Shown: piece after piece, positions 1 through 5,987 of the stretch | Layout of the letters: every line of letters begins with the position of its first letter | How positions within the stretch are numbered: the first letter of the stretch is position 1 | Made by a program: the position numbers and the translations under genes | Notes under the pieces: generated by a model | What the model saw: only the letters and a program-made list of their open reading frames with translations | What the model was told of the DNA's origin: nothing | Database searches by the model: none | NCBI GenBank assembly: GCA_947305045.1 | Contig: CAMZCW010000144.1 | Coordinates: 1 to 5,987, forward strand | DNA from: an uncultured Bacteroidales bacterium | GTDB lineage: Bacteria; Bacteroidota; Bacteroidia; Bacteroidales; UBA932 | Direction of reading: 5' to 3' | Length of the DNA stretch: 5,987 nt

Positions 1-679
1 TGACGCTGGACACCAGCACCTCCACTACGCGCGAGCTCTTTTCCTCGATGACGGAGCTCATCACCATGCCGGAGAACAGGGCGATAAACATATACAGCGC
101 CATGCCCAGAATCATGGAGATGGCCATGTAAACGCCTGATTCAGAAATGCTTTCCTCCCCGCTCTCGGAGATGGTGTAATTGTGGACATGCACATTAGAC
201 TTGACACTGTGCATAATTTCCTCCAGGTTCTCAATGCCGTAAGAATCAATGCGATAAGCCTCCACGGCGTCGTTGATACGGCGCTCTATCCCGCTTCCGC
301 TGTCCATCCCCAGCGGCTTGAGCGAATAAGTATCGGCCGTCACGCTCTTGGTTTCCGGATCCAGCGGAGAAATGGTAAGGAGAATGTCGATATCCGCCTT
401 GCCCAGGTCCGCCTTGATGGCCTCCACGTCTGCATCCACCCCTAAGTCCTTGTATTCCAGCACTTCCCCGCTTTCCAGATAGGGCATGACGATGCCGGAC
501 TGGTCCACCACGCCCACCTGTTTGGCCGCCTCCTTGGTGCCCATCATGATGAGCGAAGGAAGAATGGCGATACCGGCAAAGAGCACCGGCGTAAGGAAAG
601 TAATAAGAAGGAAGCTCTTCTTCTTGACCTTGTTCAGGTATTCCCGTTCAATGACGATTCCTAATTTCTTGAAATTCAT
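1..679 (-). CDS. ABC-2 type (NatB-like) transporter permease, 3' end cut by window
   Basis: Membrane subunit of an ABC exporter, partner of the ATPase just upstream. The 226 complete codons visible from the ATG at 679 show a short basic cytoplasmic N-terminus (MNFKKLGIVIEREYLNKVKKK), a first membrane segment at about residues 22-46, a polar extracytoplasmic domain at about 50-178, and a second membrane segment at about 183-206. The stretch IEEKSSRVVEVLVSS at 211-225 follows; this is the hallmark cytoplasmic motif after the second helix in the ABC-2/NatB/YhaP family. The remaining helices lie beyond position 1. The start is 4 nt after the ATPase stop, with GGAGGAGG 9 nt upstream, and the family normally begins with such a short basic tail. 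Family members export Na+, drugs or unknown substrates; the substrate here cannot be told. The truncation is due to the window, not a mutation. Confidence 0.9.
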   Translation of the reverse strand, partial: MNFKKLGIVIEREYLNKVKKKSFLLITFLTPVLFAGIAILPSLIMMGTKEAAKQVGVVDQSGIVMPYLESGEVLEYKDLGVDADVEAIKADLGKADIDILLTISPLDPETKSVTADTYSLKPLGMDSGSGIERRINDAVEAYRIDSYGIENLEEIMHSVKSNVHVHNYTISESGEESISESGVYMAISMILGMALYMFIALFSGMVMSSVIEEKSSRVVEVLVSSV

Positions 680-683
680 ACGC

Positions 684-1538
684 TTATACCTCCTCCGTTA
701 CCAGTTTAACAAAAATGTCGCGCATCCGGGGAATCACCTCCTTGAAGGAATTGATCCGGATGTCTTGGTCGATAAACTCCTGCAGCTTGGCATTGGCCTC
801 CGCGCGGGGAATCACAATGGATTTGCGCTCCAGGGTGTCTGTGGTGTACTCGATTTCCACATTGTCCTCCCCGTGCTGCCGACGGATTTCCTCCGTGCCA
901 CCGGTGACCACCAGTTTGGCCTTGTTGATAAGGGCGATGTTGTCGCAGAGCTCCTCCACCGACTCCATGTCGTGCGTGGACAGGATGATGGTGGCGCCTT
1001 CCTCCTTGAGCCGGAGAATCTCCTTGCGGATCAGGTCTGCATTCACCGGGTCGAAACCGGAAAAAGGCTCGTCCAGAATCATGAGCGAGGGTTTATGCAC
1101 CACCGTAGTGATGAACTGCACCTTCTGGGCCATACCCTTGGAGAGTTCCTCCACTTTCTTGTTCCACCAATCGGCAATATCAAAGCGGACGAACCATTTT
1201 TTGAGCTCTACGGCGGCCTCGCGGGCACTCATTCCCTTGAGCTGCGCCAGGTACATGGCCTGGTCTCCCACCTTCATCTTGCGGTACAGGCCGCGTTCTT
1301 CCGGCAGGTAGCCGATGCTGGACACATCCGCCTCCGTGATGGGGTGCCCCTGAAAGAGCACCTGCCCTTCCGAGGCAATGGTGATGCGGTTGATAATGCG
1401 GATAAGGGTGCTCTTCCCCGCCCCGTTGGGCCCCAGAAGCCCGAAAATTTTTCCCTCCGGGATTTCCATCGACACGTTATCCAGTGCCACCTTGGGCCCG
1501 AAGGTTTTGCTTACGTTCTTTACTTCAATGATTGCCAT
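684..1538 (-). CDS. ABC transporter ATP-binding protein (NatA-like)
   Basis: Cytoplasmic ATPase that powers the downstream ABC-2 permease. The 284 residues contain a full nucleotide-binding domain: Walker A GPNGAGKST (36-44), signature LSKGMA (132-137), Walker B LMILDEP (152-158), D-loop SGFDP (160-164) and switch histidine H189 in STHDM. In place of the usual Q-loop glutamine there is GYLPEERGLY (76-85), which is typical of the NatA/YhaQ branch and not a defect. Residues from about 205 form the C-terminal extension seen in this branch (DUF4162-like). The ATG at 1538 begins a canonical N-terminus (MAIIEVKNVSKTFG). Its stop is 4 nt before the permease start, so the pair is almost certainly cotranscribed. 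A palindromic repeat ends 6 nt before the start codon, and no Shine-Dalgarno site is visible. Substrate unknown. Confidence 0.95.
   Translation of the reverse strand: MAIIEVKNVSKTFGPKVALDNVSMEIPEGKIFGLLGPNGAGKSTLIRIINRITIASEGQVLFQGHPITEADVSSIGYLPEERGLYRKMKVGDQAMYLAQLKGMSAREAAVELKKWFVRFDIADWWNKKVEELSKGMAQKVQFITTVVHKPSLMILDEPFSGFDPVNADLIRKEILRLKEEGATIILSTHDMESVEELCDNIALINKAKLVVTGGTEEIRRQHGEDNVEIEYTTDTLERKSIVIPRAEANAKLQEFIDQDIRINSFKEVIPRMRDIFVKLVTEEV
689..696 (-). promoter_or_regulatory. Possible Shine-Dalgarno site for the ABC permease
   Basis: GGAGGAGG on the minus strand lies 9 nt before the permease ATG, an ideal spacing. It overlaps the last codons of the ATPase gene (Glu-Glu-Val), so it may exist for coding reasons. 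It is the only strong ribosome-binding-like site among the starts in this window; the others have A-rich or uninformative leaders, as is usual in Bacteroidota. Confidence 0.4.
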
Positions 1539-1544
1539 AAAATT

Positions 1545-1571
1545 GTCATTTCGAGCGAAGTCGAGAAATCT
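1545..1571 (+). repeat. 27-nt palindromic element (TTTCGAG subtype) between holA and the ABC ATPase
   Basis: On the plus strand it starts GTCATTTCGAG and ends GAGAAATCT. The ends are complementary (ATTTC/GAAAT), with an imperfect inner pairing around TCGA. It has the same length and the same termini (GTCA... and ...ATCT) as the GC-rich palindromes inside genes in this window, so it looks like a diverged subtype. It fills nearly all of the 31-nt gap. Its end overlaps the holA stop codon: TAG takes the place where other copies have GAG. No T-run follows the palindrome, so it is not a typical intrinsic terminator. Confidence 0.65.
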
Positions 1572-2610
1572 AATAATTTAAAATTTTTGTCACAAGTTCC
1601 GTGAGCAGCTCTGCGGGCGTGGCCTCGCCGGCGTCCCCGCCCTTGCCTTTATAGTCATACTCACACAGGAGCGAAATTACCTTGCTGCAACGCTGGAGCG
1701 GGTAATTCCGCACGGCAGCGTCATACTCTTTCATGAAATAGGGGTTCACGCCCAGTACCTTGGCGGCCTCCCCGGGCTGCGGGCGGCCTTTTTCCAGCAG
1801 GGCATGGTATTTCAGGATGCGGTAAAAATGGTTGTAGAGCGGTGCCACGGCCATGGGAAGGGCAAAACGCGGGGCCTCCCCCATGTGCGCGGCGATGCGC
1901 AGCGCCTTGGCACTCTCCCTGAAACTCAGGCATTTGGTAAGCTCGAAAACGCTGTACTGGCGGCTTACGCCCACATTTTTCTCCACATCCGCCACGGAAA
2001 TCTCCTGCACGCCTTCAGGCAGGTTCTTCAGGAGCTTTTCCGTTTCTACGGCTATCTTTCCAAGGTCCGTTCCGGCACTCTCTGCCAGCAGCAGGGCGGC
2101 TTCCGGATGGATGCGCAGCCCGCGGCCGTCATAATACGCCTGGATCCACTGCGGGAGTTCGTAGTCCCTGAGCGGCAGTGACTCCACAATGACGCCCGTT
2201 TTGAGGACGCTCTTGTACAGCGCTTTGCGTTTGTCGGCCGATGCCCCGTGCATCAGAATCACCAGCACAGTGCTCTCCAGCGGGTTTTGGCAATAGAGGG
2301 AGAGTTCCTCCAGGCCCTTCATTTGCTGGGCTTCCTTCACCACCACCAGCTGCCGGTCCGCCATCATGGGAAAGCGGCGGGCGGCCGTGATGACGGTATC
2401 TGCATCTACATCGGCCCCGTAACAAATGGTCTCGTTGAAGTCTTTTTCCCAGTCCTGGAGGCAGTTGTCAACAATGGCATTTGCCACCAGCTCCGGGTAA
2501 TAGGGTTCCTCCCCCATGAGCAGATAAACAGACTTGAAGATGCCTTTGCGGACATCTTCAAGTATGCTCTTGACCTGCCTGTCGGTCTCGATGTAGCCTT
2601 TGGTAGCCAC
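1570..2610 (-). CDS. holA: DNA polymerase III subunit delta (clamp loader)
   Basis: Delta subunit of the clamp loader, which opens the beta sliding clamp during replication. At 346 residues it has the usual family length. Recognisable segments are YLLMGEEPYY (29-38), characteristic of Bacteroidota HolA near the N-terminus; RRFPMMADRQLVVVKEAQ (78-95); GTDLGKIAVETEKLL (180-194) of the helical lid region; FELTKCL (222-228); and a C-terminal YDYKGKG...ELLTELVTKIL helix. The start is GTG at 2610, sharing one base with the hpf stop (TAGTG), which implies translational coupling. No better start lies nearby and the N-terminus aligns well with relatives from memory. The TAG stop sits inside the edge of a palindromic repeat. 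No missing parts seen. Confidence 0.93.
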   Translation of the reverse strand: MATKGYIETDRQVKSILEDVRKGIFKSVYLLMGEEPYYPELVANAIVDNCLQDWEKDFNETICYGADVDADTVITAARRFPMMADRQLVVVKEAQQMKGLEELSLYCQNPLESTVLVILMHGASADKRKALYKSVLKTGVIVESLPLRDYELPQWIQAYYDGRGLRIHPEAALLLAESAGTDLGKIAVETEKLLKNLPEGVQEISVADVEKNVGVSRQYSVFELTKCLSFRESAKALRIAAHMGEAPRFALPMAVAPLYNHFYRILKYHALLEKGRPQPGEAAKVLGVNPYFMKEYDAAVRNYPLQRCSKVISLLCEYDYKGKGGDAGEATPAELLTELVTKILNY

Positions 2611-2900
2611 TATTTGGCGAACTTTTTCTCTTTGGCGCGCACAATCTTTTCCTTGAGGGCATCGGCAGCCTCCGTTACGGCTTCCTCAAAGGTGTGTGCC
2701 TGGCGCTCGATGACCATATCCTCACCGGGGATGTGGGTCTGGAGCTTGACGCACTTGTTTTCTGCGTCCGGCAGGAGGCTTAAGGTGACATCGATATCAC
2801 CCATGTTGTCGAAGAACTTCTCTACTTTTCCAACTTTTTTGTCAATGTAGTCCAGCAGCTTCTCGTCTGCGTTGAACTTGAGGGACTTAACGTTAATCAT
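2610..2900 (-). CDS. hpf: Ribosome hibernation-promoting factor, short form (HPF/YfiA)
   Basis: Binds the small ribosomal subunit in slow growth or stationary phase and silences ribosomes. The 96-residue protein matches the S30AE fold of the short HPF class: beta strand MINVKSLKFNAD, helix about 13-32 (KLLDYIDKKVGKVEKFF), strands at about 35-66, the conserved HIPGEDMVIERQAHTFEEAV segment, and a long basic final helix (ALKEKIVRAKEKKFAK). It lacks the C-terminal dimerisation domain of long HPF, so dimer formation would need another factor. The ATG at 2900 lies inside the recombinase gene (8-nt overlap, ATGATTAA) and its stop overlaps the holA GTG by one base. An xerC-hpf order is common in Bacteroidota. 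No Shine-Dalgarno site; the leader is A-rich. Confidence 0.94.
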   Translation of the reverse strand: MINVKSLKFNADEKLLDYIDKKVGKVEKFFDNMGDIDVTLSLLPDAENKCVKLQTHIPGEDMVIERQAHTFEEAVTEAADALKEKIVRAKEKKFAK

Positions 2901-3903
2901 TGCGGTCTTCGTTTTTTGCCCTTGGATGGGCGTTCATGTATTGTGCTTTGAGCCGTTCCACGGAGTTGTGGGTATATACCTCTGTGGCCGCTAAACTGCT
3001 GTGGCCCAGCATCTGTTTAATGGCATTCAAGTCTGTTCCCTCGTTTAACAGCGCAGTGGCCAGGGAATGCCTGAGCACGTGGGGGGATTTCCTCCCGGTG
3101 ATGCCGCTTTGGCCTTGCAGTTCCGCTTTCACCGCCCGGTCCACAAATTCCGGATACAGGGGACGTCCCTTGTCCGTTACCAGGAGCGGAGCATTGGCAG
3201 GTCTTTCCCCTACCATGAAACTAGCTGCACGTAAATATAGCGAAATTTCTTGAAGTAACGAAGGAATGAGCGGAATTTCTCGCATTTTATCGCCTTTTCC
3301 CAGCACGCGGAGGGTCCGGCGTCCGTTATCCACGCTCTGTATTTGCAGGCCGATCAGCTCTGCGCGCCGGATGCCGCAAGTGTACAAAATGCTGATAATG
3401 AGGCGTCTGAGCCTTCGGTTGTAAAGCTCTTTGGCCAGTTTGCTGGCCGGGGCGGTGCTCAGCAGGAGCTGGAGTTCGTCGGTATCGGCCCCATGCTGGC
3501 TTTCCGTAAGATAAGCGTCCATCGCCTGCTCCGTATAATACTCCGGCAGGCGTTTTTCCATTTTGGGCCGCTTCACCGCCTTTGCGGGGTTGCTCTTGAG
3601 TACGCCTTCTTTCATCAGGAAGCCGCAGAAACCGCTGAGCGCACTTATGTGCAAATGTACGGTCCTGGGCTTGAGGCCGGAGTCAATCAGGTGCCCCTCG
3701 TACTCCCTTATCCGGGACGGGATGAGATGGCCGATCAGGTCGGCCATGACGCCCCCCCCGGCCTGACCCCTTCCGTCACCCCCGGCCTGACCGGGGGTCT
3801 CGGCCCACTGGGCAAACGCCCTCAGCGCATCCTCGTACAGCGTCACCGTCCGAGGCGAGTACCGCCGGACATCCCTGAGATATGTGACATATTTATCAAT
3901 CAT
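2893..3903 (-). CDS. xerC: Xer-type tyrosine recombinase with an in-frame repeat insertion
   Basis: Site-specific recombinase, most likely acting with a partner at dif to resolve chromosome dimers. All catalytic residues are visible in the 336 residues: R179 (GIRRAEL), K203 (LGKGDK), H275 and R278 (SPHVLRHS), H301 (LGHSS) and the nucleophile Y310 (EVYTH). The N-terminal SAM-like core-binding domain covers about 1-110. Usual Xer proteins have about 295-310 residues. The extra length is at least partly explained by residues 35-60, encoded by two inverted palindromic elements plus a Gly-rich spacer and lying between the first two helices of the core-binding domain. The inter-domain linker (about 132-165) also looks long. 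The ATG at 3903 gives a standard start (MIDKYVTYLRDVRRYSPRTV). It overlaps hpf by 8 nt. It could be called XerD-like; housekeeping context and absence of phage genes argue against a mobile integrase. Confidence 0.9.
   Translation of the reverse strand: MIDKYVTYLRDVRRYSPRTVTLYEDALRAFAQWAETPGQAGGDGRGQAGGGVMADLIGHLIPSRIREYEGHLIDSGLKPRTVHLHISALSGFCGFLMKEGVLKSNPAKAVKRPKMEKRLPEYYTEQAMDAYLTESQHGADTDELQLLLSTAPASKLAKELYNRRLRRLIISILYTCGIRRAELIGLQIQSVDNGRRTLRVLGKGDKMREIPLIPSLLQEISLYLRAASFMVGERPANAPLLVTDKGRPLYPEFVDRAVKAELQGQSGITGRKSPHVLRHSLATALLNEGTDLNAIKQMLGHSSLAATEVYTHNSVERLKAQYMNAHPRAKNEDRND
3724..3750 (-). repeat. 27-nt palindromic element inside xerC, distal copy
   Basis: Perfect 8-bp stem ATGGCCGA (3727-3734) with TCGGCCAT (3740-3747), loop TCAGG (3735-3739), framed by GAG on the left and GAC on the right of the plus strand. 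It is oriented opposite to the copy at 3775-3801. It is read in frame as xerC residues 52-60 (VMADLIGHL), so this part of the recombinase comes from the repeat. Confidence 0.75.
3775..3801 (+). repeat. 27-nt palindromic element inside xerC, proximal copy
   Basis: Perfect 8-bp stem ACCCCCGG (3778-3785) with CCGGGGGT (3791-3798), loop CCTGA (3786-3790), flanked by GTC and CTC. It is read on the coding strand as xerC residues 35-43, ETPGQAGGD. The GGCCTGACC core also occurs at 3760-3768, exactly 24 nt away, as part of a truncated spacer unit (read as GQAGG) that links it to the inverted copy at 3724-3750. Confidence 0.8.
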
Positions 3904-3926
3904 AAGTACCGAGGCACACCTCTTTT

Positions 3927-3960
3927 GTCATACCGAGGCCCAAAGGGCCGAGTGTATCTC
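3927..3960 (+). repeat. 34-nt palindromic element between cca and xerC
   Basis: Inner perfect hairpin GGCCC (3937-3941), loop AAA, GGGCC (3945-3949); outer pairing ATAC (3930-3933) with GTAT (3954-3957). Its termini, GTCA on the left and ATCTC on the right, match the 27-nt family, so it is probably a longer subtype. It fills most of the 55-nt gap, and its edge contains two bases of the cca stop codon TGA (3959-3961). The nine bases TACCGAGGC recur 24 nt away at 3907-3915, beside the xerC start, as a partial copy. No T-run follows on either strand, so a terminator role is not supported. Confidence 0.7.
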
Positions 3961-5512
3961 ACTTGGGCTCCAGCCCAAAGCACTCCCTGGCCTTTTCCCG
4001 CATATACGCATCCGCGGCCTCAAACGCGTACGGAATCTCCCCGTCCAGCACCGCGTTTTTCACCATTTCCTTAAGCTGGCCGATAATGTTACACGGCTCA
4101 ATACCAAACAGTTGCATGATGTAATCGCCAGTAATGGGGTTCTTCCAGTTGCGGATGCTGTCCTTTGCCTCCACCTCCACCATTTTCTCCTTCACCAACT
4201 CGAAATTGCGTCTGAGGCGTGCGACTTTCACAGGGTTCTTGGAGGTGATATCGGCATTGCAAAGGAGCATGAGGTCGTCAATGTCGTTGCCGGCGTCAAA
4301 CAGGAGGCGGCGAACAGCGCTGTCCGTGACTTCATCGTCCACCAGAGCGATGGGTCTAAGATGCAGATTCACAAGCTTTTGCACGTATTTCATCTTCTCG
4401 TTCAGCGGCATGCGCAGCTTCTCGAAGATTTTGGGCACCAGGCGCGCGCCGGTGACTTCGTGTCCGTGGAAGGTCCAACCCTGCCCCGCCACATACCGTT
4501 TGCTGACGGGCTTGCCGATATCGTGCAGCAGCGCGGCCCAGCGAAGCCACAGATTCGGCTCCGTGCGGGGCGTTGCATTGCCGTCCGGGTCATAGTCGTT
4601 CAGGCGGCCTTCCGCGATGGCTTCTTCTTCGAACCTTATCACGTTTTCCACCACCTGCAACGTGTGGGTAAAATTCTCCTTATGTCCCTTACCGTCAACC
4701 GTTTCCACGCCTTTGAGACGGCTCAGTTCCGGCAGGAATTGCTGCAACAGGCCCGTCTGTTCCATCAGTTCGAACGCCATGGCCGGATGGTCCGTCAGGA
4801 GCATTTTGTTCAGCTCCTCCACGATGCGCTCCTTGGAAAGGATTTGCAGGCGGTCGGCCATGATGTGCATGGCTTTCAGGCTTTCCGGGACGATAGTAAA
4901 TTTGCGCTCGTCGCTGCTCAGGCGCGCCGCAAAACGGATGGCCCGCAGCATGCGGAGCGGGTCATCGCTGTAGGTCTGTTCGGGCTCCAGGGGCGTGCGG
5001 ATAATACCGGCAGCGAGGTCCTTGATGCCTCCGAACGGGTCCACCAGGGCGCCATAATCTTCTGCTTGAAGTGAGAAGGCCATCGCATTGATAGTGAAGT
5101 CTCTACGGAGCTGGTCTTCTTCCAGCGTACCGTCCTCCACAATGGGTTTCCGGGAGTCCCGGTGATAGCTCTCCTTCCGCGCGCCCACAAACTCCACCTC
5201 CATCCCATGATACTTGAGCATGGCTGTGCCAAAGTTCTTGAACACGCTCACCCGCGCATGACACTTTTTGCCGATAGCCTCCGCCAGCAGGATCCCGGGG
5301 CGCACCACTCCATCCTGCCCGGCCGCACTGCCGTCATGCCCGGCCTGACCGGGCATCTCAACGACAATATCAATGTCCTTATTGGCCCTCCCCAGGAAGC
5401 AGTCCCTGACATACCCCCCTATTACAAAGGCCCGCACGCCCAGCTCCCTGGCCGTTTCACTCACAAGTCGGAACACCGGATGCTCCAAATATCCTTCCGT
5501 AATCGTACTCAT
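3959..5512 (-). CDS. cca: CCA tRNA nucleotidyltransferase / poly(A) polymerase family protein with HD domain
   Basis: Class II nucleotidyltransferase that most likely adds or repairs the 3' CCA of tRNAs in the cytoplasm. The 517 residues show the GGYVRD motif (32-37), metal-binding D46 and D48 in KDIDIVV, a probable third carboxylate in EVEFV (105-109), RRDFTINAM (136-144), DPLRMLRAIRFA (184-195) of the neck and nucleotide-recognition region, then an HD domain with H283, HD at 330-331 (ALLHDIGKP) and H349/H351. This architecture is usual for Bacteroidota relatives. Residues 52 to about 73, directly after the catalytic D-x-D strand, are an in-frame repeat insertion (MPGQAGHDG...AGQDG...RPG); relatives pass from IVV almost directly to the GI.LAEA helix. 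The ATG at 5512 overlaps the upstream stop by ATGA. The TGA stop lies at the edge of a palindromic repeat. A poly(A) polymerase activity cannot be excluded. Confidence 0.9.
   Translation of the reverse strand: MSTITEGYLEHPVFRLVSETARELGVRAFVIGGYVRDCFLGRANKDIDIVVEMPGQAGHDGSAAGQDGVVRPGILLAEAIGKKCHARVSVFKNFGTAMLKYHGMEVEFVGARKESYHRDSRKPIVEDGTLEEDQLRRDFTINAMAFSLQAEDYGALVDPFGGIKDLAAGIIRTPLEPEQTYSDDPLRMLRAIRFAARLSSDERKFTIVPESLKAMHIMADRLQILSKERIVEELNKMLLTDHPAMAFELMEQTGLLQQFLPELSRLKGVETVDGKGHKENFTHTLQVVENVIRFEEEAIAEGRLNDYDPDGNATPRTEPNLWLRWAALLHDIGKPVSKRYVAGQGWTFHGHEVTGARLVPKIFEKLRMPLNEKMKYVQKLVNLHLRPIALVDDEVTDSAVRRLLFDAGNDIDDLMLLCNADITSKNPVKVARLRRNFELVKEKMVEVEAKDSIRNWKNPITGDYIMQLFGIEPCNIIGQLKEMVKNAVLDGEIPYAFEAADAYMREKARECFGLEPK
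5294..5332 (-). repeat. Degenerate repeat spacer inside cca
   Basis: This stretch is read as cca residues 61-73 (GSAAGQDGVVRPG). GCCCGGCC at 5317-5324 repeats 21 nt away at 5338-5345 within the intact palindrome. AGQD followed by a V...PG stretch matches the AGQD-VIPG order in the neighbouring HsdR_N tail, suggesting the same composite insertion with fewer units and a decayed distal palindrome. The left border is approximate. Confidence 0.5.
5333..5359 (+). repeat. 27-nt palindromic element inside cca
   Basis: Perfect 8-bp stem ATGCCCGG (5336-5343) with CCGGGCAT (5349-5356), loop CCTGA (5344-5348), flanked by GTC and CTC. Read on the coding strand as cca residues 52-60, EMPGQAGHD, in the same phase as the copies in xerC and in the HsdR_N gene. 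Confidence 0.8.
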
Positions 5513-5987
5513 ACCTTCTTTTCAGATTCCCGGTCGTGGCCGGGAATGACATCCTGACCGGCCTTCCCCTCGTCATGGCCGGGCTCCCCTTCGTCATGGC
5601 CGGGCTTCCCCTCGTCATGACCGGCTTGACCGGTCATCTCCTCCCACAACGGGGCGTGCTGCATGAACTGCCAACCATCGGCTGTACGTTCAAAGATGAA
5701 TGTTTTGTGACCGTTTGTGATGGCTATATACTTCACTTTCAATTCATTATTATACCGCAGCGCCTGGTCCACCACCACCTGGTCCAATATCACTTCCGGC
5801 CGTTTGCACTCCACTACCATAAGCGGCTGCGCCTGGCGATTGTACACCACGATATCGGCCCTATAGTCCTTTCTCGCATGGCTGAACGCCACCTCGCTCC
5901 CCATCATGTGCTCCGGGACATGCATCCCCTCATGCAGCACCGATATAAACCACTGCCGCACCGCCTCCTCCGGCGTATTCCGCACAC
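5509..5987 (-). CDS. HsdR N-terminal-domain (PD-(D/E)xK fold) protein, 5' end cut by window
   Basis: Small stand-alone protein related to the N-terminal nuclease domain of type I restriction HsdR subunits (HSDR_N_2-like), widespread in Bacteroidota, with unknown cellular role. The visible part begins around VRNTPEEAVRQWF, which corresponds to the family's TPEEWVRQ segment. The first tens of residues are therefore missing, and the GTG at 5985 is probably an internal valine. Counting from that codon, D44 (RADIVVYN) and E59-C-K61 (VVECKRP) form the PD-(D/E)xK signature, followed by DQALRYN and the YIAITNGHKTFIFER core. The family usually ends soon after the segment matching residues 105-116. Here residues 116-154 are entirely repeat-encoded (GQAGHDEGKPGHDEGEPGHDEGK, AGQD, VIPGHDRES), followed by EKKV. 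No helicase or specificity genes lie beside it. Its stop overlaps the cca start by 4 nt (ATGA). Confidence 0.82.
   Translation of the reverse strand, partial: VRNTPEEAVRQWFISVLHEGMHVPEHMMGSEVAFSHARKDYRADIVVYNRQAQPLMVVECKRPEVILDQVVVDQALRYNNELKVKYIAITNGHKTFIFERTADGWQFMQHAPLWEEMTGQAGHDEGKPGHDEGEPGHDEGKAGQDVIPGHDRESEKKV
5524..5550 (-). repeat. 27-nt palindromic element at the end of the HsdR_N gene, distal copy
   Basis: Perfect 8-bp stem ATTCCCGG (5526-5533) with CCGGGAAT (5540-5547), 6-nt loop TCGTGG (5534-5539), bordered by AG and GAC. It is opposite in orientation to the copy at 5614-5640. It encodes VIPGHDRES near the C-terminus of the protein and ends 12 nt before the cca start codon. Confidence 0.75.
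5549..5611 (-). repeat. 21-nt tandem units in the HsdR_N tail
   Basis: Two near-identical 21-nt units (5570-5590 and 5591-5611, both starting TCGTCATGGCCGGGCT) differ at only two positions, one at the unit end. A degenerate third unit covers 5549-5569. They encode PGHDEGE, PGHDEGK-type heptads and AGQD on the coding strand. Each unit resembles the left half of the flanking palindrome plus a few extra bases, so the array probably grew by slippage or unequal exchange from a palindrome. Confidence 0.75.
5614..5640 (+). repeat. 27-nt palindromic element in the HsdR_N gene, proximal copy
   Basis: Perfect 8-bp stem ATGACCGG (5617-5624) with CCGGTCAT (5630-5637), loop CTTGA (5625-5629), flanked by GTC and CTC. 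Encodes EMTGQAGHD (residues 116-124 of the visible protein), in the same phase and orientation as the proximal copies in xerC and cca. It marks the point where family similarity ends and the repeat-derived tail begins. Confidence 0.8.

Follow-up and report, generated by a model that had tools for sequence, protein, structure and literature searches.

The contig CAMZCW010000144.1 of an uncultured Bacteroidales bacterium (lineage UBA932; assembly GCA_947305045.1), analysed over positions 1 to 5,987 of the forward strand (5,987 nucleotides, hereafter the window), carries five copies of a short palindromic repeat lying in frame within three genes. The repeat belongs to a dispersed family of the Bacteroidales, found mostly in metagenome-assembled genomes (MAGs) from rumen and gut, and its conserved unit is C-GTC-hairpin-CT with a stem starting AT or AC. 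Taken as a whole, the observations are probably explained by a CGTC-type short, non-autonomous mobile repeat of Bacteroidales that inserts beside CT and whose peptides are mainly tolerated. A preliminary description of the window, made without database searches, had proposed a spreading repeat that is tolerated, or selected, as a coding insert; this is supported, with the qualification that phase alone does not show selection.

The consensus of 168 distinct copies is C-GTC-AT-NN-CCGR-CYTGA-YCGG-NN-AT-CT. Two subtypes share identical ends, type a (GTC-8-5-8-CT, 26 nt) and type b (GTC-8-6-8-CT, 27 nt). The tag GTC occurs in 167/168 copies, preceded by C in 143 and by T in 17 of the 168, and the 8-bp stems are perfect in 149/177 copies. 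The second stem pair is T-A in 135/150 copies and C-G in 14/150. Watson-Crick pairing is kept in 145/150 copies at stem positions 6/22 and 7/21 (shuffle means 49.5 and 79.7) and in 146/150 at 11/17 (shuffle mean 76.6), counts that are somewhat raised by the pre-filtering of copies to at most two stem mismatches. Base 27, the one following CT, is C in 57/76 in-gene CTN copies vs 13/59 elsewhere; being mostly C in genes and variable outside them, it suggests an origin from the host sequence. A unit of 27 nt with the edges GTC and CTC was dropped on account of this variability. Among 80 pairs of neighbours at most 60 nt apart, 53 have their tags inside, 5 have them outside and 22 are tandem; a/b pairs make up 37 of the 53. 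Further palindromes with (C or T)GTCAT...ATCT ends are also present.

In the window, the five palindromes with perfect 8-bp stems that had been described are all present, and Pfam concurs with the proposed hosts xerC, cca and HsdR_N (phage-integrase/XerC type, PolyA_pol/Cca type and HSDR_N_2, respectively). The length of 27 nt given earlier for all five holds for one copy of type b (5524-5550), the other four being of type a and 26 nt long. A search with an IUPAC pattern whose loop is 5 nt recovers these four (0.05 matches expected in shuffles); 5524-5550, with its 6-nt loop, escapes it. The features are as follows (L001 and similar handles denote loci of relatives):

2893..3903, minus strand: xerC-type recombinase gene (Pfam PF00589, PF02899), with two intact copies inside.
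3724..3750, minus strand: sense type-a copy in xerC; read through the following codon it gives V-M-A-D-L-I-G-H-L, the last L being the CTC of an L-I-P-S motif.
3750..3774, no strand: diverged repeat copy lying between both intact copies of xerC; here L001 carries one further 24-nt tandem unit.
3775..3801, plus strand: type-a copy lying antisense within xerC, peptide E-T-P-G-Q-A-G-G-D.
3904..3962, plus strand: Cca-XerC junction segment of 59 nt, missing from L001 in the alignment.
3927-3960, plus strand: longer palindrome GTCATACCGAGGCCCAAAGGGCCGAGTGTATCTC with GTCAT...ATCT ends, at the Cca-XerC junction within the 59-nt segment.
3959..5512, minus strand: cca-type nucleotidyltransferase gene (Pfam PF01743, PF12627, PF01966).
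5297..5356, minus strand: entire extra Cca loop, residues 53-72, MPGQAGHDGSAAGQDGVVRP; most relatives have GS instead.
5297-5332: diverged or tandem copies beside the type-a copy of cca.
5333..5359, plus strand: type-a copy in cca, antisense, peptide E-M-P-G-Q-A-G-H-D.
5509..5985, minus strand: HsdR_N_2 gene (PF13588), open at the window end in Pfam's reading.
5524..5550, minus strand: type-b copy (6-nt loop), sense, towards the 3' end of HsdR_N, V-I-P-G-H-D-R-E-S.
5552..5613, no strand: 21-nt tandem units between both HsdR_N copies (direct repeat, spacing 21 and 21).
5614..5640, plus strand: antisense type-a copy within HsdR_N, peptide E-M-T-G-Q-A-G-H-D.

From 570 confirmed Cca relatives 80 loci were kept, whose titles are mostly those of Bacteroidales MAGs, many of them ruminant, and which led to the genomes considered below. 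The preliminary description had named orthologues with the same residues as evidence that would speak against insertion; this check does not refute it, as in most of the 80 Cca relatives the loop is of the GS type and lacks the insert. Among 120 listed Cca homologues, 44 carry an insert (10-67 aa), 49 a GS-type loop and 27 another loop (8-12 aa), in-frame tandem growth taking the loop up to 67 aa. In an AlphaFold2 model of Cca (mean predicted local distance difference test score, pLDDT, 74.2), loop residues 57-69 have pLDDT below 50 and are flanked by a strand (47-52) and a helix (72-84). The XerC insert is present in the window, L001, L005 and L006; L004 and L034 may hold decayed forms of it, and it is missing from L002, L003, L007, L008, L010, L017, L018 and L072. 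When the window is compared with L001, it alone has the HsdR_N cluster (a 120-nt alignment gap) and the 59-nt junction segment, and L001 alone has the 24-nt XerC tandem unit; expansion proceeds by in-frame units of 21 or 24 nt. The copies are polymorphic and expanding and seem to be tolerated, with insertion sites that differ between relatives.

Other loops were seen at the same place in Cca. A sister group (L002-L005 and L072) has a different 8-aa loop (SKPGTEHA, SRPGLEHA etc.) replacing GS, which may or may not be a decayed palindrome. At L073:6130 and in P0001 there are EIPGQARDE-type inserts whose DNA has CTC where the GTC tag is expected, which resembles the CCTC tag variant in the text of Di Nocera 2013 (PMC3733652).

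These alleles also bear on an older origin, in which ancestral sites were filled once and the present palindromes are their diverged or gene-converted descendants. Old insertion with divergence is one of two options given for the Rickettsia palindromic elements (RPEs) RPE-4/6/7 in the text of PMC3767692, where a common origin in Rickettsia is argued. The Cca insert always ends in VRPG-I in the window clade and in RPG-I in L010, which carries a palindrome of another family, and these ends suggest one common altered loop. That the HsdR_N and Cca-XerC junction sites are cleanly filled in the window and empty in L001, and that so many stems are intact (149/177 perfect), points to recent copies, and a single old filling of the sites is quite unlikely.

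Several sites are shared with other palindromes. An MnmA-type gene has, in the identical place, an a/b pair in genome G001 and a different palindrome in G003; one gene boundary has type a in G001 and another palindrome in G004; and in the Cca loop, the place of the window's type-a copy is taken in L010 by the GAGATTTCTCGACTTCGCTCGAAATGAC palindrome, set three codons further along. For RPE-4/6/7, different members at the same host sites in relatives are described, with hotspots or common origin left possible in the text of PMC3767692. Here, because the HsdR_N cluster and the junction palindrome are cleanly missing in L001, renewed insertion is favoured for at least some sites.

Palindromes of other families were met with elsewhere. 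One of them, GTCATTTCGAGCGAAGTCGAGAAATCT, lies at 1545-1571 (plus strand) of the window between HolA-type and ABC-transporter genes, and its family also occurs in frame in the Cca of L010. Another, VIPSSTTSVIPSAVEESPF, lies in frame in the reading frame L148:2407-3054 (minus strand), which we take to be TruB-like. Repetitive extragenic palindromic sequences (REPs) within TruB genes are also recorded (Di Nocera 2013, PMC3733652).

The preliminary description had proposed a genome-wide search for an excess of such palindromes, and an excess was found. In 11 related genomes the pattern, allowing at most one mismatch, gave 49, 18, 34, 2, 66, 2, 31, 24, 63, 53 and 0 matches, the 49 being those of the near relative G001, and a reversed control gave 0 in all 11. 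An exact 26-mer core pattern was positive in 22/199 genomes of a family sample, G001 included, and in 1/295 genomes of a class sample (G001 itself), exact matching underestimating the spread. The repeat family seems to be restricted to one lineage.

Copies were placed in stretches of four genomes (20 stretches and 17 match loci of G001, 20 stretches each of G005 and G010, and 15 match loci of G003), so that the counts for G005, G010 and G003 cover part of each genome's matches. Genes were called with a simple codon-usage caller rather than taken from curated annotation, and repeated contexts were removed prior to counting; the counts are not fully independent because some G001 and G003 insertions are orthologous. 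Of 150 copies, 79 lie within called genes, 58 outside and 13 across a gene end. The share within genes is 33/47 in G001, 24/43 in G005 and 11/46 in G010, in each case below the coding fraction (0.94, 0.90 and 0.85, respectively). A regulatory RNA or DNA hairpin, serving transcript stability, termination or as a gyrase site with its coding effect incidental, would account for the stem covariation, and such roles are proposed for REPs in the text of PMC3733652; the pairing is equally expected under transposase recognition, and with 79/150 copies in genes, where a terminator would be harmful, this explanation is most improbable.

The expected phase preference was seen. Within genes, where the copies are stop-free, 51 of the 79 are antisense in phase (E-M-P-G-Q-A-G-H-D and variants), 20 are sense in phase (V-M-P-G-L-T-G-H-L and variants) and 8 use the other open frame, so that 71/79 share one phase. 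A wider recount with looser criteria, including some G002 loci (82 type-a copies, type b and the 80 neighbour pairs), found 73/82 in-gene copies of type a in phase and 9 in another; in-gene copies of type b comprised 39 in sense (31 in phase, 8 in another phase) and 6 in antisense (3 in phase, 3 in another). The earlier claim that a single frame is used therefore holds as a strong preference and not as a rule. The host proteins are unrelated: 20 G001 host genes scanned by Pfam include primase, Cys-tRNA synthetase, transporters, hydrolases and others, with matches to RlmN, a tRNA 2-thiouridylase-type protein (presumably MnmA by name), transglycosylase/transpeptidase, DnaG primase, Cys-tRNA synthetase, two beta-ketoacyl synthases, ATP synthase (PF00231) and an amino-acid kinase. 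The copy in RlmN uses the other reading frame. The gene call for the MnmA-type protein at L167:7920-10814 (plus strand) gives 964 aa, with no Pfam match ahead of residue 494; the protein is either a fusion or has a wrong start.

How much of the phase constancy requires selection was judged from null simulations in the real genes of G001, G005 and G010, a pool of 68 copies that leaves G003 (10/11 in phase) aside. Random sites give 35.3/68 in phase, and 61 were seen (z 6.25). Targets of CT and CTC raise the expectation to 49.8 (z 3.08) and 53.3 (z 2.27), and CCT, whose first C is the conserved base before the tag, to 56.0, from which the 61 do not differ significantly (z 1.62). Combined with the loss of stop-bearing frames, the CT null predicts 73% and the CCT null 82% in the same phase; 90% were observed. 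By genome, the excess over the CT null is significant in G005 (24/24) and not in G001 (29/33) or G010 (8/11). Most of the phase constancy can therefore be put down to target choice and stop codons, and phase alone is weak evidence of selection; as its sole proof the bias was rejected, since the target nulls predict 49.8-56.0 of 68, against the 61 seen.

The one-sided orientation of a/b pairs is a stronger sign of selection than phase. Among 35 in-gene a/b neighbours (4 of them from G003 and possibly orthologous to G001 sites), 33 have tags inside and 2 tags outside, and of the 33, 30 run antisense-a then sense-b along the gene and 3 in the reverse order. This one-sidedness, together with the surplus of in-phase copies relative to the CT and CTC nulls and the in-frame growth of the Cca loop, is what would be expected if E-x-P-G-Q-A-G-x-D were a functional flexible module, selected as a useful peptide, kept and expanded. 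Such a module is unlikely, given the unrelated hosts, the phase excess that lacks significance against the CCT null and, with CT as the null, in G001 and in G010 taken singly, the relatives without the insert and the in-gene share below the coding fraction.

For the mobile repeat with mainly tolerated peptides, a mechanism may be outlined. A hairpin-recognising strand-transfer enzyme would join the hairpin next to CT, much as TnpA_REP cuts at C|T alongside its own tagged hairpin (PMC8266576). In genes, CT would often fall on Leu CTN codons or, on the other strand, on Glu/Lys/Gln NAG codons, and in each repeat orientation one frame would contain TGA; most survivors would share one phase because CT targets favour those codons and TGA closes one frame. 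Purifying selection would retain copies in tolerant loops, selection would favour antisense type a, which is glycine-rich and hydrophilic, ahead of sense type b, and the peptides would for the most part be passengers that the host tolerates and that decay until they resemble any other loop. A further reading, conceivable and rather doubtful, would see in the a/b pair a mobile element adapted to genes, with a Leu plus Glu/Lys/Gln-codon target rule, open frames that read as a soluble glycine-rich loop and a tolerated orientation, which would spread through essential genes without host death and provide new protein loops, in-frame minisatellites among them, with their raw material.

The junctions bear on insertion beside CT in different ways. 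At the XerC junction, the Leu codon is CTN in 8/8 inspected repeat-less alleles (L004 and L034, perhaps decayed, being excluded), a result qualified by CTN also being the usual Leu codon here, and at the HsdR_N site L001 has the GAG. Several points weigh against mobility of this kind. At Cca a pre-existing NAG codon is not special: AG closes 36/69 GS-type alleles, so that this site is neutral on the idea of a CT target. The junctions, from six G001 stretches compared with relatives, are only approximate, the empty alleles differing around the site. Type a with CT is 26 nt and type b with CT 27 nt, so that no single net inserted length follows. No palindrome of this family lies within about 1.5 kb of 24 Y1_Tnp loci (from 10/11 genomes), searched as stretches of 2.4-3.3 kb with one profile in partial MAGs, from which sub-threshold Y1 genes would escape. 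There was also no co-occurrence of Y1_Tnp with the repeat in the 199-genome family sample (16/22 vs 114/177 genomes, p = 0.49), and the profile matched no Y1_Tnp in the repeat-rich G489 (25 matches).

Loose palindromes have a density near the Y1_Tnp loci (0.08 per kb) close to that of the background (0.06), in a search in which more than one third of matches are due to chance (reversed control 21 vs 53). Y1_Tnp as a linked mobiliser was thus rejected for want of both linkage and co-occurrence, an absence that partial MAGs and one profile do not prove. Among the matches listed, Y1_Tnp proteins of about 310-350 aa, with a match starting near profile position 27-30, occur in several repeat-positive genomes, and similar ones in the repeat-negative G474, G400 and G443, which makes them no more than a lead.

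The preliminary description had likened the repeat to RPEs as a spreading, protein-coding palindrome; the data show such a repeat, and the link is perhaps closer than analogy. RPE-4 and RPE-6 are placed in a CGTC palindrome superfamily, which occurs in five phyla, Bacteroidetes among them (Di Nocera 2013, PMC3733652). As described in the text of that paper, the CGTC REP superfamily shares with the present family an unpaired CGTC (or TGTC/CCTC) at one end, a stem of 8-9 bp starting with a paired A-T (here 8 bp, beginning AT), heterodimers, some in-gene copies and no linked transposase, the mobiliser of CGTC repeats in general being left open there. Of its 4-5 nt loop, type a (5 nt) lies within and type b (6 nt) outside. 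Its 3-nt tail is mostly CCA, which fits most and not all members, and is here CT followed by a variable base. Its dimers tend to have tags outside (HH), a described tendency and not a strict definition, whereas here tags lie inside (TT; 53/80 vs 5/80). The 6-nt-loop partner and an in-gene share that is high in G001 and G005 and lower in G010 also set the present family apart.

With RPE-4/6/7 (PMC3767692) the family shares in-frame residence in diverse genes (79/150 copies) and the ATGAC motif, the reverse complement of GTCAT here, by which alone the sequences were compared. The in-gene inserts listed in that text are 68-192 nt, against 26-27 nt and frequent pairing here, and the Rickettsia hosts belong to an unrelated phylum. 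GTAG REPs with REP-associated tyrosine transposases (RAYTs) offer a likeness in the short hairpin, the 5' tetranucleotide tag, the inverted pairs and the hairpin-adjacent CT, the cleavage dinucleotide there (PMC8266576, PMC6006769); the present family differs from such REPtrons in its CGTC tag and in that 0/24 examined Y1_Tnp loci are flanked by the repeat. To judge by tag, stem and type-a loop, it is a putative atypical variant of the CGTC REP superfamily with the coding habit of RPE-4/6. A literature search, outside of which figures and supplements lay, found no coding family described in Bacteroidales, and an earlier listing is possible.

Palindromes inserted in frame are best known from Rickettsia. 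Here tens of copies are present in a gut and rumen lineage, many of them hosted by housekeeping genes, and relatives include both filled and empty alleles, which makes it possible to count targets, phase, orientation and decay. Handles for finding the mover of CGTC repeats are the CT junction, the CGTC tag and the a/b pairing.
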